This document shows, in pieces, positions 10,985 to 58,820 of a DNA stretch of 64,000 nt. The number at the start of each line of letters is the position of its first letter. Position 1 is the stretch's first letter. The notes below the pieces were generated by a model. The model ran no database searches. It had not been told where the DNA came from and saw nothing but the letters and a program-made list of their open reading frames with translations. The position numbers and the translations under genes are program-made. Source of the stretch: Adhaeribacter soli (lineage in GTDB: Bacteria > Bacteroidota > Bacteroidia > Cytophagales > Hymenobacteraceae); contig NZ_VTWT01000003.1 of assembly GCF_008727925.1 (NCBI RefSeq), positions 372,001-436,000 of the forward strand, read 5' to 3'.

Positions 10985-11545
10985 GGCTCGGAATAGTTAA
11001 AAAGCTTTTATTGAAAAACTTTTGGTTTAAGTGCTAAGTTTTGTTGTAATTTGCTTACAGGGGGTTTAACGCCGGGCCTTCTTAACGGTTGTTCAGATGA
11101 AACTTATAAGATTAATAATGCCATTTAAAAATTGAAAAAATACAATTTAATATGCTTTTGTAGGCATATAAGGCTTGTGAGGGCTGTAAAAAGCCAATGA
11201 GAGGGCCGCTCTTTACTGTTTGGAATCCTGGTATTTGCTACCTGAGATTGATTGAATTGTGGAAGGGTGAGGAAGGAGGCCCCAAAGTAGCGATTGAATA
11301 GGCTGTAAAGCGCGATGCTTAATTAAGTACAATTCGAGTGCTTTGAAAGCTGTTGCAATGGGGCATTCTTTAAAGTGAATGTATTCCTTTTATTTAAAGC
11401 AAATGCACCCGGGAATGGATTATCAGAGGCCGGTATCGGAGCTTAAGAACGCTAGCTTTTTGGCCTGAAAAGTAAAAACCTCTGACCGGAGCGGACAGAG
11501 GTTTTTTGTTTGGATGAGAGAGGTGGTGGCAGAGCAGTGTGTTCC
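10985..11545. other. Intergenic stretch, nothing but a terminator and a motif copy
   Basis: About 560 bases separate the PKD protein from the RND pump. I see no gene. The right part holds an AACGCTAGC motif (11448-11456) directly followed by the pump operon's terminator. Confidence 0.55.
11474..11507 (-). terminator. Intrinsic terminator of the RND efflux operon
   Basis: AAAAACCTCTG (11474-11484) pairs with CAGAGGTTTTT (11496-11506). It lies about 40 bases past the RND gene's stop codon on the minus strand. Confidence 0.85.
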
Positions 11546-14737: not shown

Positions 14738-14834
14738 TTGTTTTCTTTTCGCTTCTTAATTCAATGTGCTTCCGGTACTTCTTGGCCCGAAAGCCTATCG
14801 TTTTTCTAGTGTTCCGGCAGGCCGTTTTTTTAGT

Positions 14835-14923
14835 CGTCATTCCGAGCAACGCCGAGGAATCTTATGGGGCCATTATCTTGATGCAGGCTTGATAAGTTTC
14901 ATTGGTTGGCGCTCGGGATGACG
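14835..14923. repeat. Inverted repeat with CGTCATTCCGAGC ends
   Basis: CGTCATTCCGAGC (14835-14847) is matched by GCTCGGGATGACG (14911-14923), one mismatch. The element spans 89 bp. Confidence 0.75.
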
Positions 14924-14992
14924 CAATGCTTTGTTTTTCAATAGTTGGTTTCAGACTTTTCAGGCCTGAAAGCATAGCCTTTGTGCTGCTTT

Positions 14993-15118
14993 AAACCCCG
15001 CCCCTAGCCCCTCCGGGGAGGGGAATTGGAATACGTGACTTTTAAATCGAAATCAAATCAAATTCAATTTCACGTTACCCGATAATTCCCCTCCCCGGAG
15101 GGGCTAGGGGTGGGGTTT
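14993..15118. repeat. Inverted repeat with 35-bp GC-rich arms (MITE-like)
   Basis: Bases 14993-15027 and 15084-15118 are reverse complements over 35 bp with one mismatch. Arms contain CCCCTAGCCCCTCCGGGGAG. The 56-bp centre is AT-rich. Confidence 0.85.
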
Positions 15119-15123
15119 CATTT

Positions 15124-16263
15124 CTACTTCCCTTGTGGCGGGCCTTGGGGTTGCGGCTGACCGAGCGTGATCTTGGCGTTCGGTCGGAGTTTCTGGGTGC
15201 CTTCCACTACTATTTTATCGCCGGGTTTCAGGCCTTCGCGCACTACAATTTTATTATGGACCTTGGTGCCTAAGCCTATCTTCTGCTGCACCACCGAATC
15301 GCCCTGAATTTTATAAGCGTAGTATTCGCCCATTTGCTCGGTTAGTGCCGTTTGCGGAATTACCAGCTGGCGGCCGATGTCCTGGTTGCGGACGCGGAGC
15401 ACTACGGTCATGCCGGCAATGAGCTGGCGTTCCGGGTTTGGGAAACTTACGCGCACGGTAATGGTTCCGGTCTGGCGGTTCACGGCGCGGTCGATGGCTG
15501 CGAGCTTGCCGGGATATTTGTAAACCGAATTGTCGGAAAACTGAATGGTGAAGGTGGAATCGGATGCACTTTGCTGGTTTTGTATTCGGGTGAAGCGCGG
15601 GATTTCTTTTTCGTTGATCACAATGTCTACCGAGATCGGGTCTTCGGCTGAAATGGTGTTCAGCAAGGTTGTGCCCGGCGAAACCTGCGCTCCGACTTTT
15701 ACCTGCGAAATGCCTATCGTTCCGGACATGGGGGCGGTAATTAGCGAATAGCTTAACTCGTTGGCAGCACTGGAAACGCCGGCTTTGGCGGCGGCTACCT
15801 GGGCCTTCGCGGTTTCCAGGTCGGTGCGGGCGTAATCTACGCGCTGGCGGGCAATGGCATCCTGCCTGGCAAGGTTTTCATAACGTTCCAGGTCCTGACG
15901 CATTTTTTCCAGGTTGGCCTGGGCGCTTCTTAAGCTGGCCTGGGCTTGGTTGTAACTGGCCTGGTAGCGGGTGCGGTCTATTTCGTAGAGCTTCTGGCCT
16001 TTGCTTACTTTCTGGCCGTCCTGCACATAAATGTTGGTAATGTAGCCGGTAACCTGGGCCCGTAATTCTACTTCCTGCAAGGGTACTACGGTGCCGGGGT
16101 AGGTATCGGTGCCTACTACATTTTCTTCGGAAACGGTATAAGCGGTTACCGGCACGGGGGCATTCATGGGGTTCTGGCCTTGCTGCGCGTCTTTTTTGCC
16201 GCAACTATAAAGCAAGGCAACGCTTAAGATTCCGGCCGAAAGGTTGTATAAGTTTATTTTCAT
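15124..16263 (-). CDS. Efflux RND periplasmic adaptor subunit (membrane fusion protein)
   Basis: The 379-residue lipoprotein has a signal with lipobox LLYSC (Cys at residue 21). It then shows the adaptor order: a biotinyl-lipoyl half motif (ELRAQVTGYITNIYVQDGQKVSKGQ), an alpha-helical hairpin rich in Gln/Ala (about residues 100-165), the second lipoyl half (APMSGTIGISQVKVGAQVSPG), a beta-barrel and a membrane-proximal domain. It bridges the inner-membrane pump and the TolC-like channel. The gene starts 8 bases after the TolC gene ends, so the two are certainly cotranscribed. The Pro/Gln-rich C-terminus (GQPQPQGPPQGK) is typical of Bacteroidota adaptors. Confidence 0.95.
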   Translation of the reverse strand: MKINLYNLSAGILSVALLYSCGKKDAQQGQNPMNAPVPVTAYTVSEENVVGTDTYPGTVVPLQEVELRAQVTGYITNIYVQDGQKVSKGQKLYEIDRTRYQASYNQAQASLRSAQANLEKMRQDLERYENLARQDAIARQRVDYARTDLETAKAQVAAAKAGVSSAANELSYSLITAPMSGTIGISQVKVGAQVSPGTTLLNTISAEDPISVDIVINEKEIPRFTRIQNQQSASDSTFTIQFSDNSVYKYPGKLAAIDRAVNRQTGTITVRVSFPNPERQLIAGMTVVLRVRNQDIGRQLVIPQTALTEQMGEYYAYKIQGDSVVQQKIGLGTKVHNKIVVREGLKPGDKIVVEGTQKLRPNAKITLGQPQPQGPPQGK

Positions 16264-47602: not shown

Positions 47603-48049
47603 TTATTCATTTAAGGACTTAATGCCTTGTTCCTGCAGTTTGGCTAATCCGTCTTTCATGGCTTTTACCTTTTCGGGCGGGTGGGGCTGCCAGCTTATAA
47701 CTTCGCCAACTACTCTGAACGGATGTTGCGAACGGTAAGATCTGGTTGGGTTACCCGGAAATTTCTTGTCAGTCAGATCGGGGTCGTCTTCGATTGGCCC
47801 GGTCGGTTCTACTAAATAAATTCTTTCCCTTTCATCGCCAAAGGCCAGTTCAGCACCCCAGATAGCGGCATCCAGTGTGGCTGTAAGGAAGATATACCTT
47901 GCATTTTTTCTTTCCCCGTAGTTTGAGTTAAAACCGACTTCAATAATATCTCCGGGCTTTAAATCAGCCTTCGTGCCGTGAAAGTAAGTCTGGGCAAAAG
48001 GGGTAGGGCTTTGGCTATTCGATTTGCTCTCGGCTTGGTTCTTTTCCAT
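47603..48049 (-). CDS. arr: NAD(+)-rifampin ADP-ribosyltransferase Arr, copy 1
   Basis: Arr inactivates rifamycins by ADP-ribosylating the C23 hydroxyl, using NAD+. The 148-residue protein is full length. FAQTYFHGTKADLKPGD holds the NAD-binding His (residue 24), NARYIFLTATLDAAIWGAEL the Tyr (about 52), and EDDPDLTDKKFPGNPTRSYR the catalytic-region Asp. A Ser/Asn-rich N-terminus precedes it. It is about 93% identical to copy 2 at 55970-56416 (11 differences counted). It is the last gene of array 1; no attC-like site follows its stop. arr genes are well-known integron cassettes. Natural substrate in this organism is not shown. Confidence 0.93.
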   Translation of the reverse strand: MEKNQAESKSNSQSPTPFAQTYFHGTKADLKPGDIIEVGFNSNYGERKNARYIFLTATLDAAIWGAELAFGDERERIYLVEPTGPIEDDPDLTDKKFPGNPTRSYRSQHPFRVVGEVISWQPHPPEKVKAMKDGLAKLQEQGIKSLNE

Positions 48050-48108
48050 TGGCGAAATTTAGGATGAATGGTTTTTCGGTTTTGTGGGTGGTTTGTTGTG
48101 TGGTAATT

Positions 48109-48162
48109 GTTAACGGACTGGGCTATGCGATGGCGAAGCTGACGTATAGGTGTGGTTAGCAC
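48109..48162 (-). repeat. attC-like site a (array 1, between the lipoprotein gene and arr)
   Basis: On the minus strand GTGCTAAC opens and CCGTTAAC closes the site, with imperfect CTATRCG arms around AGCTTCGCC. The half next to arr (AGCCCAGTC) is shared with the corresponding site in array 2. Confidence 0.6.
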
Positions 48163-48187
48163 TATTTATTTTTAATCTCCATAATAT

Positions 48188-49102
48188 TTATTGAGTTCGA
48201 ATAAAAGTAATCTCCCCTGTTTTTGAAACATTTACAGTATAATAATTTAAAGTCATTGTATCAATTTCAAACCCTCCAAATTCATAAATTAGAATTTGAC
48301 CATCAGGTTTTATGTAAAAAAATCTTGAAATCCAAGAATAGTCAGCCTCACGTTCTAAATACACATTTAAAACTTTGGCTTCTCTTGTTTTAGGATCAAC
48401 AAATACTAAATTTCCGACTCCAGTAAAGATTACTACAGACTCTTCTCCCTTATATTTGTAATTATTGAAAGGGTTATCGGAAAAATAATAACATTCATAT
48501 GGGCCTATATTTGGAAGCCGCAGCTTATAATTATTATGAGTGTTTAGAATAGATGTGTATAATTCTAGATGCCATGAATATGGCAATTGTAAATATGCCA
48601 GTTTAGATATCTTGGGCGGAGTAATAACGACTTTACTATTAGCAACTTTCTGATAGTAGTCCCTAACTTTATCTAATAAGTCTCCATTAGGGTTAGGCAC
48701 ATTTGGTTTCTCATGCGGAAATTCCCAACCAGATGGGAATTTATAAGTAACTAAAATTTTTGAACCATAAGGAAAGCCGGCATTAATGGATTTACCACCA
48801 GTTGCATTTTTAAAGCTGCTGGAATCTTTAATTATATTAATAACCTGCAATACATACTTCTTCCCAATAGTTATAGTGTCCCTAGCATTCTTAGGCCATT
48901 CCCTTATCTCTTCATTATTATTTCCAAGGCTGTCAATTTTCTCCTGAGTTGACTTAAGATTTGTTATCGATTTATTATTTTCTTCCGGCAGCTTTTTTAA
49001 CTCTGAGACGCTATCAGATTTTCCTTCTTTTTTAGTTTCAGATGAATTACAACCTAAAACTGGAAGAATAACTAAACCAATAAAGGACCAAATTTTCATC
49101 AA
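48188..49102 (-). CDS. Hypothetical lipoprotein, cassette gene of array 1
   Basis: The 304-residue protein has a lipoprotein signal (MMKIWSFIGLVILPVLGC, Cys 18) and a Ser/Lys/Glu-rich linker to about residue 60. A mixed beta domain follows with regularly spaced aromatic strands (LAYLQLPYSWHLELYTSILN, ESVVIFTGVGNLVFVDPKTR). No family is recognised. It is AT-rich compared with the core genes, and is flanked on both sides by attC-like sites with its start 26 bases from the upstream site. It is likely a mobile cassette gene anchored to a membrane. Confidence 0.75.
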   Translation of the reverse strand: MMKIWSFIGLVILPVLGCNSSETKKEGKSDSVSELKKLPEENNKSITNLKSTQEKIDSLGNNNEEIREWPKNARDTITIGKKYVLQVINIIKDSSSFKNATGGKSINAGFPYGSKILVTYKFPSGWEFPHEKPNVPNPNGDLLDKVRDYYQKVANSKVVITPPKISKLAYLQLPYSWHLELYTSILNTHNNYKLRLPNIGPYECYYFSDNPFNNYKYKGEESVVIFTGVGNLVFVDPKTREAKVLNVYLEREADYSWISRFFYIKPDGQILIYEFGGFEIDTMTLNYYTVNVSKTGEITFIRTQ

Positions 49103-49127
49103 CTTAGCTTTCTTATAATTTAATTTA

Positions 49128-49180
49128 CCCCAACGGCTGGGCTAAAAAGCGTTTTAATGATTTTTAGCTTTTGTTGTGGG
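49128..49180 (-). repeat. attC-like site b (array 1)
   Basis: Minus strand: CCCACAAC at the gene-3' side, GTTGGGG at the next-gene side. Arms GCTAAAAA and TTTTTAGC pair perfectly. The 26-base core from GCTAAAAAGCGTTTTAATGA onward is identical to site j in array 2. Confidence 0.75.
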
Positions 49181-49188
49181 AAGCCATT

Positions 49189-49659
49189 TTAAACTATTAT
49201 TCCAGCATTCTTAAATTCAGCTTCCACTTTTTTTATTACTTCCTCAACTACCTTTGTTTCTACACTTTCTTGTTGAACTTCTTTAGAGTAGGATTTTAAA
49301 TCATTGAAGAAACTGTCTTGTTCTAATTTCCAAAGAAGGTAAGTTCTATTTTCTCTCTGGTAACTAAAAATCACGAAGTCGTCTATAAAAGTTGTTGAGG
49401 AAACTCGGTGAACCCAATCCTCGCTTTTCTTTAACCTTTCAAAAAGCTGGTTTTTATTTAATTCAGCAATTCCATTATTTAAAATTGGCTTTTTAAATTC
49501 ATATAGGGTTCTAAGTAGGTAGCCATTCAAGTAAATCAAATCTTCGCTTGTACCTATGAATTTTCCCCTAACCCATATTTTACCAAAGCCCATTTCTTTG
49601 GGGTAATTTTCTGCAAAGCTAAACTCAACAGCGAAGTTATTTATATCACCTATTATCAT
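49189..49659 (-). CDS. Imm42-like small protein, cassette gene of array 1
   Basis: The 156-residue protein begins MIIGDINNFAVEFSF and continues with FGKIWVRGKFIGTSEDLIYL. This resembles the start of Imm42 immunity proteins (MxIGDxxxFA, then G-x-IW-x-G-x-x-IG). The rest alternates strands and helices and ends in a long charged helix. Immunity proteins neutralise polymorphic toxins; no toxin gene is present, which fits a solitary cassette gene. The assignment rests on the N-terminal pattern and is moderate. Confidence 0.6.
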   Translation of the reverse strand: MIIGDINNFAVEFSFAENYPKEMGFGKIWVRGKFIGTSEDLIYLNGYLLRTLYEFKKPILNNGIAELNKNQLFERLKKSEDWVHRVSSTTFIDDFVIFSYQRENRTYLLWKLEQDSFFNDLKSYSKEVQQESVETKVVEEVIKKVEAEFKNAGIIV

Positions 49660-49670
49660 TCATTACTTTG

Positions 49671-49723
49671 GGTTACCGGTTAGGCTATGCGGCGGCGAAG
49701 CTGCCGTATAGGTGGGGTTAGCA
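49671..49723 (-). repeat. attC-like site c (array 1)
   Basis: Minus strand: TGCTAACCCC opens; the closing box is degenerate (GGTAACC). Arms CTATGCGGC and GCCGTATAG pair with one wobble around GGCGAAGCT. Same GCTTCGCC-type centre as site a. Confidence 0.65.
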
Positions 49724-49735
49724 AAAGTAATTCTT

Positions 49736-50386
49736 TTACTTTCTGGAATTTTCTTCATTGTGATTTATGGTTTCACGTAGCTTTCCGTTTTGATCATAAT
49801 ATTTCCAAGTCCCTATCTTCTTTCCCTCTTTCCAAATTCCTTCATCTTTCTTATTACCATTCTCATAAAAACCTACTGATTCACCATCTTCAAGTCCGTT
49901 TTGCCAATAAGTTTTATCTTTAAGTGAGCCACTTTCATACCAGGAAGCCCATTCTCCGTCTTGCAAGTTCTCAACCACGGTTCCTTCAGCCTTCTTATTA
50001 CCATTCTGATAATAAAAAATGGCCAGGCCATTTCTTTTTCCATTCTTGAAATTGGCAATTTGGTTTAGTTTTCCATTTGGGAAATAATGTCGGCTTTCGC
50101 CTTCAGCTATTCCATCTATATGAAATTGTTCTCCCTCTTTTACACCAGTATCATAATATTCGACTGATTTTCCATTCTGTAAACCATTTTTGAATTTACA
50201 TTGGAATTTAATCTTTCCATTTTTATGATAATAAGTAGCAGTACCTTCTAAATTACCATTTACAGTAAATGCTTCAGACTCTAATTCTCCTGTTTCATAA
50301 TGCTGAACTACTTTTTCAGGTTTGGATTGAGCATTACAACTGTTCAAGGAAATAAAGAAAAGGAGTATGGTAAAGAGTTTCATCAA
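49736..50386 (-). CDS. MORN-variant repeat lipoprotein (YwqK-type), cassette gene of array 1
   Basis: The 216-residue protein has a lipoprotein-type signal (Cys near residue 17, LFFISLNSCNAQ). It is followed by about eight MORN_2-like repeats of roughly 22 residues with the pattern YYxNGKxKxxxxFKNGxxxG (for example FYYQNGNKKAEGTV and FYENGNKKDEGIWKEGK). Proteins of this type are annotated as YwqK-family antitoxins in toxin-antitoxin contexts, but a toxin partner is not adjacent. It is probably anchored in the envelope and presents a repeat sheet. Flanked by attC-like sites c and d. Confidence 0.85.
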   Translation of the reverse strand: MMKLFTILLFFISLNSCNAQSKPEKVVQHYETGELESEAFTVNGNLEGTATYYHKNGKIKFQCKFKNGLQNGKSVEYYDTGVKEGEQFHIDGIAEGESRHYFPNGKLNQIANFKNGKRNGLAIFYYQNGNKKAEGTVVENLQDGEWASWYESGSLKDKTYWQNGLEDGESVGFYENGNKKDEGIWKEGKKIGTWKYYDQNGKLRETINHNEENSRK

Positions 50387-50403
50387 ATTTTTAATTTTTA
50401 TTT

Positions 50404-50429
50404 GGGCTAAAGCCTATACCTTGTTAGCC
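50404..50429 (-). repeat. attC-like site d (array 1, short or truncated)
   Basis: Minus strand: GGCTAAC followed by AAGGTATAGG and TTTAGCCC. Only a 6-bp GGCTAA/TTAGCC pairing remains, so the site looks like a remnant or a minimal form. Confidence 0.4.
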
Positions 50430-50437
50430 TATAGTTT

Positions 50438-50953
50438 TTATTTTTTACTTTGTTCTAAATATTCGTCAAAGGTTGAATAATCAGCAACCACGTTTCCTGC
50501 AGAATCAATTCCTAGATAGTGATTAGGTTTGTTTCTCATTTCTGCAATCAAACTTTCTTTTAAATTAAACTTCTTTAATATTTTCTTTACGTTTTCAATT
50601 TGGTTTGAATCCTTAATGATTGCTAAAGTTACTTCACCATCATCGTGGCTTCCTATTTCAATTCCATTTTCTAATACCAAGTCTAAATTGTGGATATAGT
50701 AATCAGGATGATTTAAGAAAAAGTCATTAAAATGAGCAAGCTTTTTAAAATCAATTATTTGAGAATCGGTTAAGTAATTATCCTGTTGGTCGTAAGCTTC
50801 AATTTCTATTTTTTCAATTTCAAATTCTGCTTCTAAAAGAGTCGTTGCTTGAAGAGAAGACATTTCCATAAAGTAATATCTTTCTTTACCTTCTTCTGAA
50901 TTACCGAAGTGTACTAACTGAATTGTCAAATATTCATCCTCTTCTAAATTCAT
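50438..50953 (-). CDS. Hypothetical acidic protein, cassette gene of array 1
   Basis: The 171-residue, strongly acidic cytoplasmic protein begins with MNLEEDEYLTIQLVHFGNSE. It has a helix/strand mixture (AYDQQDNYLTDSQIIDFKK) and a C-terminal HYLGIDSAGNVVADYSTFDE segment. No family is recognised. It has no signal peptide. It lies between sites d and e, AT-rich, with its start 14 bases from the closing box of site e. Confidence 0.7.
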   Translation of the reverse strand: MNLEEDEYLTIQLVHFGNSEEGKERYYFMEMSSLQATTLLEAEFEIEKIEIEAYDQQDNYLTDSQIIDFKKLAHFNDFFLNHPDYYIHNLDLVLENGIEIGSHDDGEVTLAIIKDSNQIENVKKILKKFNLKESLIAEMRNKPNHYLGIDSAGNVVADYSTFDEYLEQSKK

Positions 50954-50966
50954 TATTTCAAATTAT

Positions 50967-51032
50967 GGCTAACGTTTAGTATAAAAAGTGAACGAGGCGA
51001 AGCCGAAGTTTAATTTTTATACCTTGTTGGGC
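50967..51032 (-). repeat. attC-like site e (array 1, best formed)
   Basis: Minus strand: GCCCAAC (exact RYYYAAC) opens, GTTAGCC closes just before the next start. Arms GTATAAAAA and TTTTTATAC pair perfectly; inner GTGAACGAGGC-GAA-GCCGAAGTT pairs imperfectly. The 66-bp size is in the range of classical attC sites. Confidence 0.8.
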
Positions 51033-51044
51033 AACGATTTTCTT

Positions 51045-51476
51045 TTATTTTTCCTTTTCGATGATTTTAAGAAGCCTTTCAAGTTCTTCTCCTTTCTGTT
51101 TTGCTTTTTCTATCCCTTCAAGAATTATCTTTTTAGCTTCCTGATTGTTGTCCATAATCGCATATTCAAAATGAGCCAACTCAAGATAATTGTCTATATT
51201 GAATTTTTGTAGTTCTATAAGGCTACCAAGAAGCTCTCTTACATCTTGCAAATCGAATTGGCTGAAAACTGCTTCATCGTTTAACAGTAGTAGCACACTT
51301 GAAAAGTCGGTTCCCAATCCAGCGTTGAAGTCCCACTTTTGGAGTAAGTCAACATATCTTAAAGCTATTTTATCAATCACATCATTGGAATAGTCGCGAC
51401 CTCCTTCTTCGTCAAGGAAGTTTAGCATTTCTTTATTCCTGTTAATGATTCGAGTAATAACTTCTTTTATTGTCAT
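51045..51476 (-). CDS. Hypothetical helical protein, cassette gene of array 1
   Basis: The 143-residue protein is predicted almost wholly helical (TIKEVITRIINRNKEMLNFL, LELAHFEYAIMDNNQEAKK, EGIEKAKQKGEELERLLKII). The tail has a TPR/helical-repeat look, with A-x-x-x-Y and Gly-Ile/Glu turns. No family is recognised. Start MTIKEV lies 18 bases from the closing box of site f. AT-rich and flanked by attC-like sites. Confidence 0.7.
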   Translation of the reverse strand: MTIKEVITRIINRNKEMLNFLDEEGGRDYSNDVIDKIALRYVDLLQKWDFNAGLGTDFSSVLLLLNDEAVFSQFDLQDVRELLGSLIELQKFNIDNYLELAHFEYAIMDNNQEAKKIILEGIEKAKQKGEELERLLKIIEKEK

Positions 51477-51493
51477 TTCATTTTTTAAATGCT

Positions 51494-51626
51494 GCCCAAT
51501 GTTTAGTATAAAAATACTGGTGGATTTAATGCCACAAGCTTTTAAATTTTGACCAAAAGCTTAGCGTTGTTTTGCTGTTTAAATCCGCAGTATCACCGCC
51601 ATAATTTTTATGCATTGTTGTAGGGC
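51494..51626 (-). repeat. attC-like site f (array 1, long form overlapping a gene end)
   Basis: Minus strand: CCCTACAAC opens and ATTGGGC closes, 133 bp apart. Arms ATAAAAAT and GGATTTAA pair with complementary blocks on the other side, with offsets. The right part overlaps the last 34 codons of the 51526-52296 gene. Confidence 0.65.
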
Positions 51627-52296
51627 GTTTTTCTTCATTTAAGATTTTCAGATTACTTTCCTTAACAGACCAGCCTGATTTATTATCACTTTCGACTTCC
51701 GTCCACACGGTTGACTTTCTTTCTTCTTCCGTTCGCAAATCTTCATATTCGTAATGGCCGATTTCATCAGTTTTTCCTGATAATATGATTTTGCCATTTT
51801 CAATCCAAGTAATTGCTCTTTCAATGTCAGACTGTAACTGTGGATAGAAGCTCCCTATCAGTTCTAGCTTTTCTGTTTCTGATATTTCTTCCCATGTTTC
51901 AGCTTTATAGTTGCTGGGCGGAACTTCAACAGTCAAGCCATAACCTAACCCTAAGTCATTCAGAAAAGCGTATCCCTTGCAATATAGGTCGTAGAATTGT
52001 CTAAGGATATCTGGTAGCTTTTCGTCTTTATTTTTGGCGGCATATAGGAGATTGAGCATTCTCCATTTCTCGTATTCTGCAAGATCGATGTACCTGTCTG
52101 TAAGCAGATTTACAAGTTCATACTTTGCACCGTTCTTTTTGTAGTTAAAAGAAATCAGCTCAAGGTATTCGTCTTCTGACAAAATGGTTTCTATTTCCTT
52201 GTCTGAATATACCCAAGACTCAAATTCTTCCAAGGCGACCGTTCCAAAAATGGTGTCGTAGAACTTTTCTTCTATATGCCTTGGAAGCTTTTTCAT
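51526..52296 (-). CDS. Hypothetical protein, first cassette gene of array 1
   Basis: The 256-residue cytoplasmic protein begins MKKLPRHIEEKFYDTIFGTV and has an acidic, mainly helical N-terminal half (ILSEDEYLELISFNYKK, YIDLAEYEKWRMLNLLYAAK) and a charged C-terminal half. I do not recognise a family; the pattern of short acidic helices would fit an immunity-type protein but does not prove it. Its final residues (KNYGGDTADLNSKTTLSF) are read from the attC-like site f, so the native C-terminus may have been altered when the cassette was assembled. It is the gene nearest the shared leader. Confidence 0.7.
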   Translation of the reverse strand: MKKLPRHIEEKFYDTIFGTVALEEFESWVYSDKEIETILSEDEYLELISFNYKKNGAKYELVNLLTDRYIDLAEYEKWRMLNLLYAAKNKDEKLPDILRQFYDLYCKGYAFLNDLGLGYGLTVEVPPSNYKAETWEEISETEKLELIGSFYPQLQSDIERAITWIENGKIILSGKTDEIGHYEYEDLRTEEERKSTVWTEVESDNKSGWSVKESNLKILNEEKRPTTMHKNYGGDTADLNSKTTLSFWSKFKSLWH

Positions 52297-52620
52297 ATTT
52301 TAAATGGCCTACAACTACTGTATAAACAACACTACTACGTTTATCCCACCACCGTTAGTCGGATAAACGTATGTTTTTAGCAAATATAACAGAATGTTGG
52401 CAGGCGTAAGTAGTTAAAGGAAATGGATTTCGATCTAAGCTTTTCTGACCTGCTTTACGGCAGCAATAACCACCTTCCGTTTACCCCGGTAGCAGACTTC
52501 TGAGTTAATTCAGCTGGTCGTTGTAGTTCGGTTTGTGCTCAAAAACAGGGTTGTTTTGTTCAATGCCGGCTTGAATATTACTATCTGATTTAGAAAAATA
52601 AAAAACTAAGTGCAGCTGAT
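52297..52620. other. Stretch between array 1 and the paralogue pair
   Basis: It contains the 118-bp leader. The remaining bases (52427-52620) hold no gene or repeat that I can see. Confidence 0.55.
52309..52426 (-). promoter_or_regulatory. Leader of array 1 (118-bp direct repeat, copy 1)
   Basis: About 93% identical to 58581-58698 (8 to 9 changes). Read on the minus strand it has a TATATTTG box (52381-52388), an 11-bp-stem hairpin TACGTTTATCC/GGATAAACGTA (52336-52346 with 52361-52371), and GTTGTAG (52309-52315), the closing box of an attC- or attI-like site, 13 bases before the first start codon. It looks like a promoter plus recombination site for the array. Confidence 0.7.
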
Positions 52621-53595
52621 TTACTTTTTTATTTGGGGTGAATAAGGGATCTGAGTCATTACCCAACCGATTACGTGGAGCTGGATATCGTTCTGACCGG
52701 CATTCACCAGTAATGGGCCCAACGACAGTTGTTGGTTTTCTTCTTTCGCATTGTTTATAACCCGCAGGTCCTGTCTGCTCCACTCGGCCAGAATTTCAAC
52801 ATTCGTCCCGATTATGACACTCGAGGGAATCATGGGAAGCACACCCCGGCCATCGTTTTTTCCGGAAGAGCAGAAGCCTTCATTTTGCCCTTTCAGATAC
52901 CAGCCCGAAGTTTCAAAAAGTAAAGGATCGAACCACGGCCGGCTCAGGCTAACCATCTGGTAACTTACCTTGGCCGAACTTATTTTACTGCCCGTATGGA
53001 GTGGGATTGTGCTGGTCGAGTTATCGGGATTTACAATTTTCCATTCAGTCTGATCTTCCGGGGCATTCCCGGCACCATTTTTTTCTCCGGTTATTCCTCC
53101 CAGATCAATATCGAGTTGTTTTATGCCGTTGAATGCCTTGCTGTCGTACCAGTTATCCGGCACTGCATATACGGGACACCAACTGCCGGGCGTGCCATCC
53201 ATATTCGCGAAAGTCTGGCGGGTAAGGTTCCGGACCGCGTCGCCTATTATATCGGCGGCAAACGAATCGGCATCTTCCGCTACTGCTCCTTTTATGATCT
53301 GGGTATAGGTTCTTTCGGTAGAACTACTGCCTGGAATATAGACATCGGCAAATTGGGGAATAGGATCTACCAACTGCCGGAACCGCCAAAGCGAAATAAG
53401 GTCGCCGTTGGGATTGGCCGTGGAGAGCGGGTTTTTGTAGTCTTCGGAATTTAAAGTAATAGGGTAGGCGCTTAACAAAACCGTGGGTGGCGGCGCTAAA
53501 CTGCTACGGAAACCGCTGCTCTTTAATTTTTTCTCCGGGGTTTTAACCTCAGCGGCAAAAGCCGAGGAAAGCGTTTTATATAGGTTGGCACTCAT
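52621..53595 (-). CDS. Unknown protein, smaller member of a paralogous pair
   Basis: The 324-residue protein has no signal peptide. It shares its C-terminal half with the upstream neighbour: SRPWFDPLLFETSGWYLKGQ, LPMIPSSVIIGTNVEILAEW and a closing LHVIGWV match RPWLNTLLFRTKGWWLKNQ, LPLIPTAFVVMSDVKIKSDF and MQIIAWV there. The N-terminus is Ser/Pro-rich (SSGFRSSLAPPPTVLLSAYP). No family or motif is recognised. It follows the larger paralogue by about 80 bases, and both lie between the two cassette arrays with core-like base composition rather than cassette-like AT-richness. Confidence 0.75.
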   Translation of the reverse strand: MSANLYKTLSSAFAAEVKTPEKKLKSSGFRSSLAPPPTVLLSAYPITLNSEDYKNPLSTANPNGDLISLWRFRQLVDPIPQFADVYIPGSSSTERTYTQIIKGAVAEDADSFAADIIGDAVRNLTRQTFANMDGTPGSWCPVYAVPDNWYDSKAFNGIKQLDIDLGGITGEKNGAGNAPEDQTEWKIVNPDNSTSTIPLHTGSKISSAKVSYQMVSLSRPWFDPLLFETSGWYLKGQNEGFCSSGKNDGRGVLPMIPSSVIIGTNVEILAEWSRQDLRVINNAKEENQQLSLGPLLVNAGQNDIQLHVIGWVMTQIPYSPQIKK

Positions 53596-53675
53596 GGTTC
53601 TCTTTTCTTCATAAGCAAAAAATCACCGGTGGAGCTTTAAGGTCCACCGGTGAAAGTTTAAATCTAATTTCAGGA

Positions 53676-55115
53676 CTATGCCTCTGTTATCAGTTCTGGT
53701 TTTGCCTTTGGCTCCGACTGAAGCTTGGCTCCTGCATGCGCCATTGGTGCACACGGCGGCGTGATCTCATTTACCCAGGCAATTATCTGCATGCCCGGAA
53801 TGCTGATCTCACCGTTGGCAAAGGTCGCTTTGGTTTTGTCGTGCGATTCGCTGTGGGAGTAGCTTGCACTAATGCTGAATGGTCCCCAGCCCACGCTGGT
53901 TTTACCGCTGGTTGCGCTGGCAATGTGGCTTTTGTCTTTTTCGCTGAAATCCGATTTTATTTTCACATCGCTCATTACCACAAAAGCAGTGGGAATAAGC
54001 GGCAGCATGCTGTCTGCATTTCCTTCCAGTTGACCGTTAGAGATACCATTTTGCGGCTGGTTCTTTAACCACCATCCTTTGGTTCTGAACAGCAAGGTAT
54101 TAAGCCAAGGCCGCATTATTTTAACCAGGGTTAATTTGGCGCTGATCTCTACGTAGGTGCCATCGAAGTGCTCACTCGTAGCTTCATCGGTATGGTTAAA
54201 GGAACCGCCCACGCTCCAAAGACCGCCACCCCAGGAAGCGCCGCCGCCGTAGGAATTGGCTTTGGAATCGGCAGATGTGTTTACCACGGAGCTCTTATAG
54301 GTGAACTTGGTGGCTCCTTTAGAACCGGCGCCTTTGTACCAATCGCTTGGCAGCGGATAGGTCATTAAGAACTTATTAGCTCCGGAGGCAAGCCAGTTCG
54401 AATCGCTGACCTTTTTTTGACCATCGGCAATTATAGAGGAAACGATATCGTTGATGGTAGCCTGCAGGGCGTTCTGAGCGCGCTCTACGTTTGCTTTACC
54501 GCCTCTTGTCCAGTTATTCCAGGCTTTGTCTACATTCAGAGAGAGGCCCGGTTCCACGGCATTCCAGGCACGCTGATCGGCAACTTTGGTAAGATCGTAC
54601 CCGAGCATGGCATTCCGGTAACCTCCTATTGCCGTGATGTAGGCGGTCTGGTTATCGTCATAGGTCTGGGCAATCGGGCTTGGGCCAGGTACTTCCGTGG
54701 GCGGCTCCGGTTCCGGGTTCGGGATCAGGGTGACCTGGTTCAGGTAATTATAATTACTGTCGTAGGTTTTCTTCTGGGCAGGATCTACTTCCGCATCGGT
54801 ATTGGCATTATTTACAATTTGCTTAAAGGTGTCTGCAAGCTTAATGGAAGAAGGTTTATAAGAGGGCTCTACCGATGGAACAATATCGGTCATGGCAAAG
54901 AAGTTGTAGGCCGTATTGTAACTGCCATTCGGGTTATTAGGCGCCAACTGGCTTTTGAAGTCATCCGGATTAATGGCTTCCATTTTGGAAAATTGCAACA
55001 GCGTTCTGGCGGGATCGAAGGCAGCCGGTTTATCCGAGCCCGGCGCATAGGTGATCATGGCAAAAATGTTGTCGTAAAGCCCTTGTAAGACCTTTGATTC
55101 TTCTGCTGGTGTCAT
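53676..55115 (-). CDS. Unknown protein, larger member of a paralogous pair
   Basis: The 479-residue protein has no signal peptide. Its N-terminus is helical (MTPAEESKVLQGLYDNIFAM), then a Pro/Glu-rich hinge (PNPEPEPPTEVPGPSP) leads to a helical centre. The C-terminal half is rich in alternating Ser/Thr/Gly and hydrophobic residues (GGASWGGGLWSVGGSFNHT, GWGPFSISASYSHSESHD). Such amphipathic hairpins resemble membrane-inserting strands of pore-forming proteins, but this is only a resemblance. The C-terminal part is shared with the downstream paralogue. No family is recognised. Confidence 0.75.
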   Translation of the reverse strand: MTPAEESKVLQGLYDNIFAMITYAPGSDKPAAFDPARTLLQFSKMEAINPDDFKSQLAPNNPNGSYNTAYNFFAMTDIVPSVEPSYKPSSIKLADTFKQIVNNANTDAEVDPAQKKTYDSNYNYLNQVTLIPNPEPEPPTEVPGPSPIAQTYDDNQTAYITAIGGYRNAMLGYDLTKVADQRAWNAVEPGLSLNVDKAWNNWTRGGKANVERAQNALQATINDIVSSIIADGQKKVSDSNWLASGANKFLMTYPLPSDWYKGAGSKGATKFTYKSSVVNTSADSKANSYGGGASWGGGLWSVGGSFNHTDEATSEHFDGTYVEISAKLTLVKIMRPWLNTLLFRTKGWWLKNQPQNGISNGQLEGNADSMLPLIPTAFVVMSDVKIKSDFSEKDKSHIASATSGKTSVGWGPFSISASYSHSESHDKTKATFANGEISIPGMQIIAWVNEITPPCAPMAHAGAKLQSEPKAKPELITEA

Positions 55116-55969
55116 AAACGTTTTGAATTTTAGTGTTTTGCCTACTCTGTATAGTTTTCAGCTTCCCTATTGTATTACAGTTGTTTGTGGTACCAAAACA
55201 ATTGCATTCAATAATTTATGATTTGCAAGAAGTAGCTTCCGGGCTTCGGATAATGAACAGCTTTTTAGTACGCTATCTAAGATCCTGGCCTGGATAAAGG
55301 GCGAGGTTGTAAAGGATATTTTCCGGCCAATACCCCCAACCTGGGGAAGGAAAAATAGCAGCCGTTATATTATTTCTTTGGAAATGTATAGAATTGTTAT
55401 AAAATGACAAAATTAAATGTATCCTAATGTTAAAATATATGGTAAACAAAATAATAACCTTGGTGAAGGTTTGAAACTGGCATGTAAAAGGAACCGGGGT
55501 TGAAGGAAAAAACTTCAGATTTAACTAGATTCTTTTCTATCTGACTGAAGCGTAATGGGTTGGGTATGGAAGCATGTCTTGGCCAAGGCAGGCACAGGCA
55601 GGCCTTTTCTGAAAGAGAGTAATTTTTGGTTAACTACGAAGCGTTTTCTGATTGAAGCTTAACAGTCCGGATTTGGTGGTTAGTAAGGGAGGTTCCGAAA
55701 TCGAAGGATAAGTTCTTATAGAGGTCTGGCGCTTTCCTGCGATCAGGAAAACCATTGCCGTCTGTTTTGCGGACGTATTTCAGGAAAACAAATTAATGGC
55801 TTCAGCCTAATCCGTTTTTATGAACATGGTTCGGTTGGCGAAAGCATATTTGCTATCTTCTTTTCCGTCAGCTAAAGCATACGGTAATGAATTAAACAGG
55901 GCCAACCCGACAGGGCTGTGTGATAAATATGGGGCTTTAAAAGAGGAAGAAATATCCTGGTAACGTCAG
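55116..55969. other. Long intergenic stretch upstream of the paralogue pair
   Basis: About 850 bases without a credible gene. The left part, upstream of the paralogue gene, shows nothing beyond AT-richness. A degenerate CATTGCCGTCTG element lies at 55753-55889. Confidence 0.6.
55753..55889. repeat. MITE-like CATTGCCGTCT element, degraded copy
   Basis: CATTGCCGTCTGTTTTGCGG (55753-55772) faces CCGTCAGCTAAAGCATACGG (55865-55884) plus TAATG, the same ends as the element at 40249-40399. Confidence 0.7.
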
Positions 55970-56416
55970 TTATTCATATAAGGACTTAATGCCTTGTTCC
56001 TGCAGTTTGGCTAATCCGTCTTTCATGGCTTTTACTTTTTCGGGTGAGTGGGCCTGCCAGTTTGTAGCTTCGCCAACTACTCTGAACGGATGTTGCGAAC
56101 GGTAAGATCTGGTTGGGTTGCCCGGAAATTTTTTGTCGGTCAGGTCGGGGTCGTCTTCGATTGGCCCGGTTGGTTCTACTAAATAAATTCTTCCCCTTCC
56201 ATCGCCGTAGGCCAGTTCAGCACCCCAGATAGCGGCATCCAGCGTGGCTGTCAGGAAGATATACCTTGCATTCTTTCTTTCTCCGTAGTTGGAGTTAAAT
56301 CCAACTTCAATAATATCTCCGGGCTTTAAGTCTGCCTTCGTGCCGTGAAAATAGGTTTGGGCAAAAGGGGTAGGGCTTTGGCTATTCGGTTTGTCCTCGG
56401 CTTGGTTCTTTTCCAT
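55970..56416 (-). CDS. arr: NAD(+)-rifampin ADP-ribosyltransferase Arr, copy 2
   Basis: Full-length second copy of Arr, same 148 residues and same His/Tyr/Asp pattern as copy 1, with 11 substitutions that leave the catalytic segments intact (for example AYGDGRGR for AFGDERER and EATNWQAHSP for EVISWQPHPP). It is the last gene of array 2. The upstream 85 bases are also alike in both copies, and similarity fades at the preceding attC-like site. No attC-like site follows its stop. Both copies look functional. Confidence 0.93.
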   Translation of the reverse strand: MEKNQAEDKPNSQSPTPFAQTYFHGTKADLKPGDIIEVGFNSNYGERKNARYIFLTATLDAAIWGAELAYGDGRGRIYLVEPTGPIEDDPDLTDKKFPGNPTRSYRSQHPFRVVGEATNWQAHSPEKVKAMKDGLAKLQEQGIKSLYE

Positions 56417-56480
56417 TGGCGAAATTTATGGTGAATGGTTTTTTCGTTTTTTGGGGTGGTTTGTTGTGGTGAGTGCTGAT

Positions 56481-56524
56481 GACTGGGCTAATTGACGTTG
56501 GAGTTGACGTTTGGGGTGGTTATA
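56481..56524 (-). repeat. attC-like site l (array 2, degenerate)
   Basis: Minus strand: CTATAACCACC opens; the arr-side half contains AGCCCAGTC as in site a, but the GTT box is not preserved. Weak GACGTT/AACGTC pairing. Confidence 0.4.
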
Positions 56525-56960
56525 GTTTGTTTTTATTTTTTGTAAATGCAATGCCTTTCTCGCGAACTGCTTGAAAATCCTCCGGCAGCTTTTCTACGGC
56601 TTTTAATTTGAATTTTGTTTTTCCTACAAAGGTGACGAAGGCAATTGCAATTATCTGAATTTTTGACTTTTTATCTTTTCGTCTTACTTCAATTTTTTCA
56701 TTCTTAAACGAATTGTCATCAAATAATTTTAATGCTTGGGGTTTGTAAGAATTATCCCAGGCCCCAATTGCAGGTAACCAGGCACCTTGCCACTTTGTAA
56801 ATATTTCCATAGTAGCAGAATCACCTTTAACAATCAATATTGCATATTTGGGAGTTAGTCCCCCGTCATAAGCAATATAGATTCCGTTTTCCAGTTTCTG
56901 GCCGTAAGAAAGGTTTAGGGAAAGATAGAATATGAATAGAAAGCTAATTATTCTTTTCAT
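56520..56960 (-). CDS. Hypothetical exported protein, cassette gene of array 2
   Basis: The 146-residue protein has a signal peptide (MKRIISFLFIFYLSLNLSYG, then Q) and a small beta-rich mature domain (LENGIYIAYDGGLTPKYAIL, TMEIFTKWQGAWLPAIGAW) ending in a basic tail. No family is recognised. It is AT-rich, lies between sites j and l, and ends inside site l. Periplasmic or surface location is inferred from the signal peptide. Confidence 0.72.
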   Translation of the reverse strand: MKRIISFLFIFYLSLNLSYGQKLENGIYIAYDGGLTPKYAILIVKGDSATMEIFTKWQGAWLPAIGAWDNSYKPQALKLFDDNSFKNEKIEVRRKDKKSKIQIIAIAFVTFVGKTKFKLKAVEKLPEDFQAVREKGIAFTKNKNKL

Positions 56961-56971
56961 TTACAAATTAC

Positions 56972-57023
56972 CTATAACGTCTCTGCTAAAAAGCGTTTTA
57001 ATGATTTTTATGTTTTGTTAGCC
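56972..57023 (-). repeat. attC-like site j (array 2)
   Basis: Minus strand: GGCTAAC opens inside the end of the 57008-57454 gene, GTTATAG closes 12 bases before the next start. CTAAAAA and TTTTTA arms pair. The core is identical to site b of array 1 over 26 bases. Confidence 0.7.
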
Positions 57024-57454
57024 AATGGTTTTTCTTGTTTTTTAAATAAAATAAACTGTCTTTCCTTTAACCCAAAGTAATTTTTATCTAAAGAAATTGT
57101 TCGGATATCAATTTCAATTTTTTCTTCTATTGGGTCATTCCAATCTCCCTCCCAACAACAGTAAAATTCTAAATTCTCTTTGAGTGTCTGTTGGTTAATA
57201 AATTCGAGAAATCTTTTAGGTGATTTTTTATTTATTTCCTCGTTTGGGTCATTATAATTTTTAGAATCAAATTGAAGTCCACAAGAGCAACCAGTATCAG
57301 ACCCAACATAATACAGATAAGGGTTTGAAAATTTTGGTCTAAGTCCTTCTAATTCTTCTTCGGTTAGATGCTCAAAATATATGTCAGTTTTTTCAGGCAC
57401 AAATTCTCCAATTTCTTGCTCTTCATTAGTACCAATGTAAACTGCGAAACACAT
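57008..57454 (-). CDS. Hypothetical Cys-containing protein, cassette gene of array 2
   Basis: The 148-residue cytoplasmic protein begins MCFAVYIGTNEEQEIGEF and has a CSCGLQF pair and a later CCWEGDW pair, so it may bind a metal or form a small Cys cluster. The ending FILFKKQEKPLANKT runs into attC-like site j. No family is recognised with confidence. It is AT-rich and solitary in its cassette. Confidence 0.72.
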   Translation of the reverse strand: MCFAVYIGTNEEQEIGEFVPEKTDIYFEHLTEEELEGLRPKFSNPYLYYVGSDTGCSCGLQFDSKNYNDPNEEINKKSPKRFLEFINQQTLKENLEFYCCWEGDWNDPIEEKIEIDIRTISLDKNYFGLKERQFILFKKQEKPLANKT

Positions 57455-57476
57455 TAATTCTTTAATTTTAAGTGAT

Positions 57477-57529
57477 GGCTAACGTGCTGGGCTAAAACAC
57501 GCCTTGGTGTGTTTTAGCTTTTGTTGGGC
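57477..57529 (-). repeat. attC-like site h (array 2, well formed)
   Basis: Minus strand: GCCCAAC (exact RYYYAAC) opens, GTTAGCC closes. Arms GCTAAAACAC and GTGTTTTAGC are perfect 10-bp complements with an 8-base loop. 53 bp in total. Confidence 0.8.
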
Positions 57530-57538
57530 TTAGTTATT

Positions 57539-58030
57539 CTATTTTAAAATATGTAAACTAGCTCTTTGTATGATTTCTAAAAATGGTTTTATTTTATTTT
57601 CGTCTTTGTACCAAATCAAATTTGTCCAATCCCATTCTTCACTATAAATAGCTGAGAATTCAGGAAGTAAAATAGAATATCTCTGCCCAGACAAACCAGT
57701 TTGCTGGTCAATATCGCATTTTAATTGAAGATGGTTTAAGGAATTTGGAGGGTAAACAAAAATTCTATTTCTTTTTTTGTATCTCCAGATAAATGTTTCT
57801 GTTTCTACGAAAAGGTCCGAAATAACTTGCTTAAACTTTTCCCGTCTGGATTTTATTTCTTTTTCGTCCGTATTATATATTTGAACACATTCTTCTTCAG
57901 TCAACCAATGGTCGAATACACTTACTGCTAATTTTTTAAAATTTTCTTCTCCACCTTCAAGAATATTCTTAAATCCTGGTAATGACAGTTCGATAGCTTT
58001 TACTTGATTTGCTGTAAGTCTTTTTATCAT
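57539..58030 (-). CDS. Hypothetical protein, cassette gene of array 2
   Basis: I start at the ATG at 58030 (MIKRLTANQVKAIELSLPGF); the longer frame begins with a TTG inside the recombination box GTTGGGC, which is not a credible start. The 163-residue protein has a helical N-terminal half (ENFKKLAVSVFDHWLTEEEC) and an aromatic, strand-rich C-terminal half (FIWRYKKRNRIFVYPPNS, EEWDWTNLIWYKDENK). No family is recognised. AT-rich; between sites h and i. Confidence 0.7.
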   Translation of the reverse strand: MIKRLTANQVKAIELSLPGFKNILEGGEENFKKLAVSVFDHWLTEEECVQIYNTDEKEIKSRREKFKQVISDLFVETETFIWRYKKRNRIFVYPPNSLNHLQLKCDIDQQTGLSGQRYSILLPEFSAIYSEEWDWTNLIWYKDENKIKPFLEIIQRASLHILK

Positions 58031-58039
58031 TTTAATTAT

Positions 58040-58106
58040 GCCCAACGGACTTGTGTAAACGACGGCGAGGCCATCGGCCGAAGCTGACGTTTACACGTGG
58101 TTGTAG
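58040..58106 (-). repeat. attC-like site i (array 2, well formed)
   Basis: Minus strand: CTACAAC opens and GTTGGGC (exact GTTRRRY) closes, 10 bases before the next start. Arms GTGTAAACG and CGTTTACAC are perfect, with an inner GGCCGAAGC-type region like sites a and c. Confidence 0.8.
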
Positions 58107-58118
58107 TGAGTTATTTTT

Positions 58119-58568
58119 TTAGATAATATTGCTACTGTATTTTCTTATACCTTTTAACTCAGCAGTTCCATCTTCTCTTTCTGCAAGAGATTTTAACTCC
58201 TTGCAAAAATCATCTATTGCACTTGGTTCAACAATCAACTCCATTGAGAGTTTGTCCTTTTCTTCTTTTCGGTATTCTGTCGAAACATTTTCTTCCATCG
58301 TTACAAGAACACCACACCTTCCAGTCGGACTGATTTTATAGAAGTCCATTTCAAAATAAGCGTAACTATCCTTTTTTCCGCAAGAATGATTTAGCCTATC
58401 TTTTCCAAAAGGAAAACCGATGAGTTCTTTTACAAACTTTAGCAAATTATCAGAGACCTCGTAAACTTCAGTAATTCCTGAGTATCGCCCATTATTAGCA
58501 GAAATCTGTAACTCAATCATATCCTCGTCTTTCCAAATGACTTCAAATTTTAAATGATTTTCGTTCAT
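58119..58568 (-). CDS. Hypothetical protein, first cassette gene of array 2
   Basis: The 149-residue acidic protein begins MNENHLKFEVIWKDEDMIEL, continues with an antiparallel-looking beta region (YAYFEMDFYKISPTGRCGVL) and ends with a helix (PSAIDDFCKELKSLAERED) plus a short tail. No family is recognised; small acidic proteins of this kind are frequent among solitary immunity or cassette genes. It is the gene nearest the leader, with its start 13 bases from the GTTGTAG box. Confidence 0.7.
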   Translation of the reverse strand: MNENHLKFEVIWKDEDMIELQISANNGRYSGITEVYEVSDNLLKFVKELIGFPFGKDRLNHSCGKKDSYAYFEMDFYKISPTGRCGVLVTMEENVSTEYRKEEKDKLSMELIVEPSAIDDFCKELKSLAEREDGTAELKGIRKYSSNII

Positions 58569-58580
58569 TATTCTAATTAA

Positions 58581-58698
58581 CTACAACTACCATATAAACA
58601 ACACTACTACGTTTATCCAACCACCGTTAGTCGGATAAACGTATGTTTCTAGCAAATATAACAGAATATTGGAAGGCGCAAGTAGTTAAAGGAGATGG
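58581..58698 (-). promoter_or_regulatory. Leader of array 2 (118-bp direct repeat, copy 2)
   Basis: Read on the minus strand: CTTG (58682-58679), 18 bases, TATATTTG (58660-58653, full TAnnTTTG match), then an 11-bp-stem hairpin (58608-58618 with 58633-58643) and GTTGTAG (58587-58581) just before the first cassette gene. The -7 box and hairpin stem are identical in copy 1. It probably drives the array and carries the recombination box where the first cassette joined. Confidence 0.7.
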
Positions 58699-58820
58699 GT
58701 TACGGTTCAGGTTTTTCTGATCGTAAGGGCAGCGGTTTTGCCGGGGAAATGACGGCGTCCGGAATTTTCAGAAAGATCTTCCATGGGAATTTATTTAGTT
58801 TAAAAGAAACGATTAGCTGG

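Follow-up and report, generated by a model that had tools for sequence, protein, structure and literature searches.

Cassette arrays under orphan attI-like leaders in Adhaeribacter soli and a patchless recombinase that may serve them

Integrons of the canonical kind, such as class 1 integrons and the chromosomal integrons of Vibrio, are arrays of cassettes that each hold one gene and an attC site with NNNNAAC (R'') and GTTNNNN (R') boxes and a hairpin. The core GTTNNNN that starts a cassette and the NNNNAAC that ends it derive from one circular attC and are hence complementary, and the two boxes of a single attC within an array stem from different cassettes. The intI gene is usually divergent from the array, and arr is a known class 1 cassette. 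Here we describe two blocks of genes in a 64-kb window of the Adhaeribacter soli genome (positions 372001-436000 of contig NZ_VTWT01000003.1, called C10 among the 16 contigs of the genome; "the window" is this whole stretch), which a first-pass annotation had read as integron-like cassette arrays. The system is like a canonical integron in its cassettes of one gene and a hairpin attC, in the match between core and R'', in an attI with a GTT insertion point, and in a variable cassette content that includes arr. It differs in its recombinase, which is encoded on another contig (C8), lacks about 42 residues of the IntI patch region, carries about 210 extra N-terminal residues, and lies upstream of its array on the same strand. 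We conclude that the two blocks are very probably integron-type cassette arrays under orphan attI-like leaders, likely moved in trans by the C8 recombinase.

The available text of PMC9668308 and PMC9024848 defines clusters of attC sites lacking an integrase (CALINs) as at least two attC sites less than 4 kb apart with no integrase nearby. The window arrays, with several attC sites within 4 kb and no integrase nearby, fit this definition and resemble the CALINs described in the accessible parts of PMC9024848 and PMC8618304, but they differ in that attI-like leaders carrying a promoter-like box head them and that a matching recombinase is encoded elsewhere in the genome. For the "integron-like" subgroup of tyrosine recombinases, the available text of PMC8138268 describes no attC arrays beside proteins that lack the patch insertion, whereas arrays are present here. 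The catalytic part of the recombinase is like that of XerA and archaeal Xer-like proteins, but its gene is coupled to an attI and to arrays and the protein has an N-terminal extension. In titles and the first lines of abstracts, drawn mostly from open-access literature without bioRxiv preprints, there was no recognisable account of integron integrases that lack the patch and go with attC arrays. The unusual features of the system are the patchless recombinase and the orphan attI-like leaders.

The window arrays, their attC sites and their cassettes

The twelve same-strand genes described in the first-pass annotation are present on the minus strand in two blocks, seven genes in block 1 (47603-52296) and five in block 2 (55970-58568). 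The ten spacers inside the blocks measure 47 to 138 nt with the gene starts chosen in this analysis, not 26 to 133 bp as first given. We built a covariance model, R1, from 17 of 21 first sites 3' of recombinases in other genomes; one of these sites came from the sister species and none from A. soli itself (omitted were L056, which is long and from the own genome, and L061, L062, and L077, which have no clear hairpin). In the training alignment 86.9% of cells were paired, versus 24 to 31% with one side slid, and 9 of the 13 stem pairs had changed on both sides, which is covariation. On both strands of the 64-kb window with filters off, R1 gave seven matches with E values from 7e-16 to 5e-5 (the weakest 5.2e-5), and the next match was at 0.63. 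All seven fall inside the arrays, on the strand of the genes, so that the covariance-model check proposed in the first-pass annotation was passed by 7 of the 10 spacers with a model of independent origin, R1 standing in for IntegronFinder's own attC model. The sites have R'' and R' boxes and a conserved, covarying hairpin and stand in tandem between cassettes, as is expected of attC. The whole genome holds 24 attC sites at an E of ≤0.05, on contigs C1, C5, C8, C10, C12, C13, and C15.

Folding the bottom strand of the ten sites as single-stranded DNA gave z scores from -3.20 to -0.05, with four sites at -1.98 or lower; folding energy by itself is a weak test of attC identity. A scan for any palindrome flanked by AAC and GTT was rejected because it failed to set the arrays apart from the rest of the window: 7 of its 23 minus-strand matches were in the array region, and there were 22 matches on the plus strand. 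Rfam at an E of up to 1 had no match on the spacers, and its single match in the window was a DUF805b RNA outside the arrays.

The complementarity of cassette ends provided a second line of evidence. We compared cores in 150 R1 sites of relatives from 26 named loci, which form 123 consecutive units; some of these are R1 training sites under other names, and the attI-to-first-site match that had picked them was excluded. All four variable core bases agreed in 98 of the 123 units and in 91 of the 96 units spaced by ≤900 bp, compared to 5 of 150 when the boxes of a single site were compared and 3.3% in random pairs. In the window, 7 of 11 units obey this cassette rule (those of the 149-, 168-, 148-, 146-, 256-, 143-, and 171-aa genes). 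A match within cassettes and not within sites is a pattern unexpected for terminators or RNA hairpins.

The arrays also differ in content. Between blocks 1 and 2, the arr regions are 92% identical over 499 nt; between leader and arr the alignable sequence is limited to two attC pieces, one of 35 nt and one of 46 nt, and no cassette gene is common to both. The 149-aa cassette recurs with 84% DNA identity in a genome of another genus of the family (G013), where the homology extends from the core GTTGTAG to a point within the attC; on its left the cassette borders an attC in that genome and the leader in the window. Gain and loss at the level of single cassettes is therefore visible, where the first-pass annotation had named an unchanging gene order as the contrary outcome, and its integron-cassette reading is supported both by this turnover and by the fit of the spacers to an independent attC model.

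Coordinates are collected in Table 1. The last gene of both blocks is arr, encoding a rifampin ADP-ribosyltransferase (PF12120). The other ten cassette proteins have at most MORN repeats or family matches below cut-off; no NCBIfam family reached its cut-off among them and no PADLOC family matched. Their genes have a G+C content of 0.29 to 0.38. Between the blocks sit two genes, 53676-55115 (0.50) and 52621-53595 (0.49), which show no sign that would mark them as cassettes and had no match in a Pfam search. The C-terminal parts of their products look similar by eye (RPW...LLFxTxGWxLK). The DUF805b RNA (RF02914, 37.7 bits, gathering threshold 35.6) lies at 55139-55171 on the minus strand, directly 5' of the 479-aa gene 53676-55115.

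Table 1. Features of the two window arrays, listed in the direction of reading (positions of the window)
Block	Feature	Position	Strand	Remarks
2	Orphan attI-like leader	58581..58720	-	TATATTTG box (similar to the Bacteroidota -7 box), palindrome TACGTTTATCCGACTAACGGTGGTTGGATAAACGTA, then core GTTGTAG 58587-58581
2	Cassette gene, 149 aa, no known family	58119..58568	-	Core 58587 fits R'' 58106
2	attC site a	58040..58106	-	R1 E 2e-13
2	Cassette gene, 168 aa, no known family	57539..58045	-	Core 58046 fits R'' 57529, 7/7
2	attC site b	57477..57529	-	R1 E 1e-6
2	Cassette gene, 148 aa	57008..57454	-	Core 57483 fits R'' 57023, 7/7
2	attC site c	56972..57023	-	R1 E 5.2e-5; fold z -0.05
2	Cassette gene, 146 aa	56520..56960	-	Core 56978 fits R'' 56525, 7/7
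2	Degenerate attC, R'' CTATAAC kept, R' lost	56474..56525	-	Read from sequence, missed by R1; fold z -1.64
2	arr2, last gene	55970..56416	-	PF12120 E 1.2e-48; fails cassette rule
1	Orphan attI-like leader	52309..52448	-	Core GTTGTAG 52315-52309
1	Cassette gene, 256 aa, 3' end runs into attC h	51526..52296	-	Core 52315 fits R'' 51623, 7/7
1	Long attC h, 130 nt, R' ATTGGGC	51494..51623	-	Cassette rule; fold z -2.64; weak R1 match 51494-51554, E 9.8
1	Cassette gene, 143 aa	51045..51476	-	Core 51500 (ATTGGGC) vs R'' 51032: 4 variable bases fit, 6/7 overall
1	attC site e	50967..51032	-	R1 E 7e-16
1	Cassette gene, 171 aa	50438..50953	-	Core 50973 fits R'' 50429, 7/7
1	attC i, looks truncated, R'' GGCTAAC kept	50387..50429	-	Read from sequence; missed by R1
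1	Cassette gene, 216 aa, MORN_2 repeats	49736..50386	-	PF07661 E 2.8e-27; fails cassette rule
1	attC site f	49671..49723	-	R1 E 1.2e-8
1	Cassette gene, 156 aa, weak Imm42-like	49189..49659	-	PF15593 E 4.3e-4, 21.2 bits, below cut-off 27.2; fails cassette rule
1	attC site d	49128..49179	-	R1 E 5.8e-8
1	Cassette gene, 304 aa, no known family	48188..49102	-	Fails cassette rule
1	attC site g	48108..48161	-	R1 E 2.8e-9
1	arr1, last gene	47603..48049	-	PF12120 E 1.9e-48; no attC 3' of it in the R1 scan of the window

The C8 recombinase, its attI and the orphan leaders

There is no tyrosine recombinase in the window, all nine PF00589 matches of the genome falling outside it, in agreement with the first-pass annotation, which saw no IntI-like gene there. 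Its description of the arrays as having no integrase holds locally but not for the genome, since C8 carries an intact recombinase with its own attI and array. Positions 524560-526134 of C8 encode this 525-aa tyrosine recombinase, in which R, K, HxxR, H, and Y are present by eye. Beyond its stop codon, on the 3' side, lies a site ending in CAGTA/GTT, followed by a cassette array on the same strand, and the first core behind the gene (GTTAGAG) fits the R'' of the first attC of that array. The genome has this one intact recombinase of the long kind and one broken copy at C10:211115-211714 (L053), with four stops in the matched stretch and three R1 sites 3' of it; L053 is a decayed second platform. 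Upstream and divergent of the recombinase gene, both genomes of the genus encode a small cysteine-containing protein (L009 391-765, L017 2733-3110), a possible partner of the recombinase; the one of the two that was searched gave a weak match to a treble-clef family, below cut-off.

The recombinase and its arrays stay together across genera. Among 200 family genomes, the recombinase is present in 68 at an E of ≤1e-60 and R1 sites in 77. Both occur in 65 genomes, attC alone in 12, a weak recombinase match alone in 3 (G079, G159, and G166), and neither in 120. The site counts are lower bounds, since at most 26 candidates were scored per genome under strict filters. Named carriers of the long recombinase belong to Pontibacter, Rufibacter, Adhaeribacter, Sabulibacter, and Botryobacter. 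At 58 named loci, all 224 R1 matches (E ≤ 0.01) lie on the strand of the recombinase, and all 150 that were checked, in 26 loci, lie 3' of it. The first genes of the arrays vary: an open reading frame of at least 60 aa was obtained behind 42 of the 58 recombinases inspected, and only 2 of 861 pairs of these were related. A 235-kb plasmid of Rufibacter tibetensis has a copy of the recombinase followed by eight sites on the plus strand (11092-16248, E no higher than 0.05) and one further R1 match, on both strands, at 18949.

We aligned 29 attI loci at the core, with AGTT as the anchor, so that its 2.0 bits hold by construction. Mean information was 0.75 bits at positions -40 to -1, 0.47 in the four bases after GTT, and 0.40 beyond. 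The expected R'' 7-mer occurred 3' of the attI in 21 of 30 recombinase loci, versus 75 of 838 decoys. One locus (L074) gave no core and was excluded; of the nine loci without the 7-mer, five stop shortly past the core and others have a repeated element there. These loci thus have an attI beside the recombinase gene with a fixed insertion point, as integrons do, and the two window leaders have no adjoining integrase.

The window leaders (58581-58720 and 52309-52448) are 89% identical over 140 nt, and the shared stretch stops with the final G of the core GTTGTAG. Two further orphan leaders lie on C15 of the same genome, each with a matching R'' behind it. Adhaeribacter terrigena has four matches to the window leader, and other relatives have similar elements. 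Eleven orphan leaders of relatives were chosen for an R'' test (L023, L024, and L028 were left out because a repeated element follows their core, and L025, L031, and L035 for having no clear core or cut), and a matching R'' lay 3' of 8 of the 11, versus 8 of 108 decoys. The first-pass annotation had spoken of a promoter-bearing leader. The leader repeat is real, but a promoter scan of the window leader scored no better than shuffles, and the promoter box stands as a sequence motif.

Two side observations concern these sites. A near-perfect 36-nt palindrome in the leaders (58608-58643 and 52336-52371 in the window) recurs in the leaders of relatives; the recombinase-linked attI in A. soli showed no such palindrome. 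In several genomes, a repeated sequence with CCGTCATTGG(G)ATTATTTTCAG or GCCGTGATTGGGATTATTTTC stands directly behind the core GTT, after attI or attC cores (loci L023, L024, L028, L060, L066, L069, L076, L078, and L082). Rfam had no match to it in the five loci checked, and it could be an element with integron cores as its target.

The missing IntI patch and distant relatives

A genome search for a recombinase with the IntI patch, as the first-pass annotation had proposed, led to a recombinase next to an attI and an array but not to the patch. All 31 family recombinases examined have 65 residues from the GKG lysine motif to HxLRH (K-H spacing), whereas all 16 canonical IntI proteins (15 from other genomes of the phylum, plus IntI1) have 107; the two XerC/D-like proteins encoded in A. 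soli have 71 and 73. By this measure the family recombinases lack the IntI-specific patch. An alignment to IntI4 (2a3v) left its residues 209-248 unmatched in the recombinase of the sister genome. Against TIGR02249 the 525-aa protein scored 196.5 bits, with a cut-off of 265, and the best sequence and fold matches of its catalytic part are XerA and archaeal Xer-like proteins (5hxy and 4a8e). In a tree, the 16 canonical IntI proteins formed one group and the 31 family recombinases another, both at 100/100, so that the latter do not cluster with canonical IntI; the root and deep order are unsure, and long branches were flagged. As judged from these sequences, the system appears to work like an integron, and its recombinase falls outside the IntI family as now defined because the patch, the defining feature that we tested, is absent.

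Shorter patchless relatives, mostly of 345 to 400 aa, head arrays in Salinimicrobium and other Bacteroidota. Fifteen such distant recombinases did not form one group in the tree. Their K-H spacing was 63 to 66 in 12 (some by a looser motif) and 65 to 66 in 10 by a second measurement; in the 5 without a second figure, the stretch is similar in length by eye. We looked for chains of consecutive units that obey the cassette rule. In a first run on 20 distant loci, Salinimicrobium sp. TH3 (L170) had a 13-unit chain whose first unit would include the recombinase gene, L164 had a chain of 3, and L153 and L155 had chains of 2; the minus strand never gave more than 1. R1 gave five matches at an E of up to 1 in these 20 loci, although chains were found in some. 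In 40 further loci, taken from the top of the match list and so not random (two had no recombinase that could be found, and L241 overlaps L229), 14 had a chain of at least three units downstream on the recombinase strand, compared to a maximum of two on the opposite strand and one upstream. Some of the distant genomes with arrays lie outside the class, and one (G215) has a patchless recombinase, an array, and a canonical IntI.

Models of the A. terrigena recombinase had a mean predicted local distance difference test (pLDDT) score of 78.6 for the full protein and 80.9 for the first 188 residues, which are modeled as two repeats (about 8-77 and 109-179). The best structural match of these repeats was the N-terminal domain of archaeal XPB, with a middling Z of 6.2 over 57 residues (2.4 Å). 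A Foldseek search with the N-terminal part had its best E, 0.033, to other folds and gave nothing convincing. Our guess is that the repeats could read the folded DNA in place of the patch.

Readings of the system and its significance

Under the integron-type reading, a cassette would be one gene and an attC able to form a hairpin from its bottom strand, and recombination would use that single strand. The 525-aa recombinase would catalyze the reaction and serve the window arrays in trans. Recombination of attC with attC would excise cassettes as circles, which would be reinserted at the core GTT of an attI, a leader, or an attC, and a leader promoter would express the first cassettes. A broader proposal, to which we give a little less than even weight, is that Bacteroidia and some neighboring Bacteroidota have a widespread integron of their own, in which the N-terminal modules, weakly XPB-like, would read folded attC and the recombinase would serve, in trans, several leaders that have no integrase and are dispersed over one genome.

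Several observations weigh against the integron-type reading. The patch insertion is called essential for integron function in the available text of PMC8138268, citing the IntI4 structure. Shared ancestry is a confounder of the joint presence of recombinase and attC in genomes. Among relatives, 25 of the 123 units lack a full core match, and 3 of the 11 orphan leaders lack the expected R''. The chain test was not clean either: at L160, a chain of 3 with AT-rich cores starts on the upstream side of the recombinase and probably reflects chance, and in a control of 17 regions, 16 of them with a recognized canonical IntI, a chain of at least three units was found at 1 of 16 loci (L273, a chain of 3 on the divergent side), with almost only the divergent side inspected. 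In the window, 4 of 11 units break the cassette rule (arr2, 216, 156, and 304), R1 missed 3 of 10 spacers (51494-51623, which is long and overlaps the 3' end of the 256-aa open reading frame, 50387-50429, and 56474-56525), and 2 of 10 sites have a fold z above -1, hardly better than shuffles, so that the folding expected in the first-pass annotation was borne out only in part. Given these features of the window, we consider parts of its arrays to be decayed.

The 4 rule-breaking units and 3 missed sites would also fit arrays that are relics, that is, CALINs of real cassettes, now immobile, that were brought in by the canonical IntI of some other bacterium or by an integrase since lost, with the C8 recombinase otherwise employed. 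The broken recombinase copy at C10:211 kb points the same way, as do the canonical IntI proteins above cut-off in 105 of 395 genomes of the phylum and the presence of both kinds of recombinase in G215. We nevertheless consider such relics unlikely, because from genus to genus the recombinase and attI remain linked to arrays whose first genes are different and because the own genome has no TIGR02249 match at cut-off. Only one of the genomes with canonical IntI is marked as of the same class (G236), and among 14 distant genomes with chains of at least three units only G215 has it.

It is highly improbable that the housekeeping XerC/XerD proteins move the cassettes while the long recombinase is employed otherwise. 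The genome does encode two XerC/D-like proteins (L001 and L003), and both the sequence and the fold of the long recombinase are similar to XerA; still, XerC/D are nearly universal, attC occurs in only 77 of 200 family genomes, and 65 of those 77 have the long recombinase, whose gene the attI abuts. Bidirectional terminators or RNA elements that came to resemble attC by convergence have a negligible chance of explaining the spacers, which are intergenic palindromes with two of ten hardly folding beyond shuffles, since the variable core bases match across the cassette and hardly ever within a site, where terminators would pair, and homology between two genomes begins exactly at the core; the Rfam null result is neutral here.

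If the integron-type reading of the system is true, a patchless recombinase family coupled to hundreds of attC sites would represent a second way to recombine folded attC, and the requirement for the patch would become directly testable. It could explain why surveys that seek patch-bearing IntI find few integrons in Bacteroidia, and it would mean that Bacteroidia hold a large pool of cassettes, including resistance-type genes such as arr.

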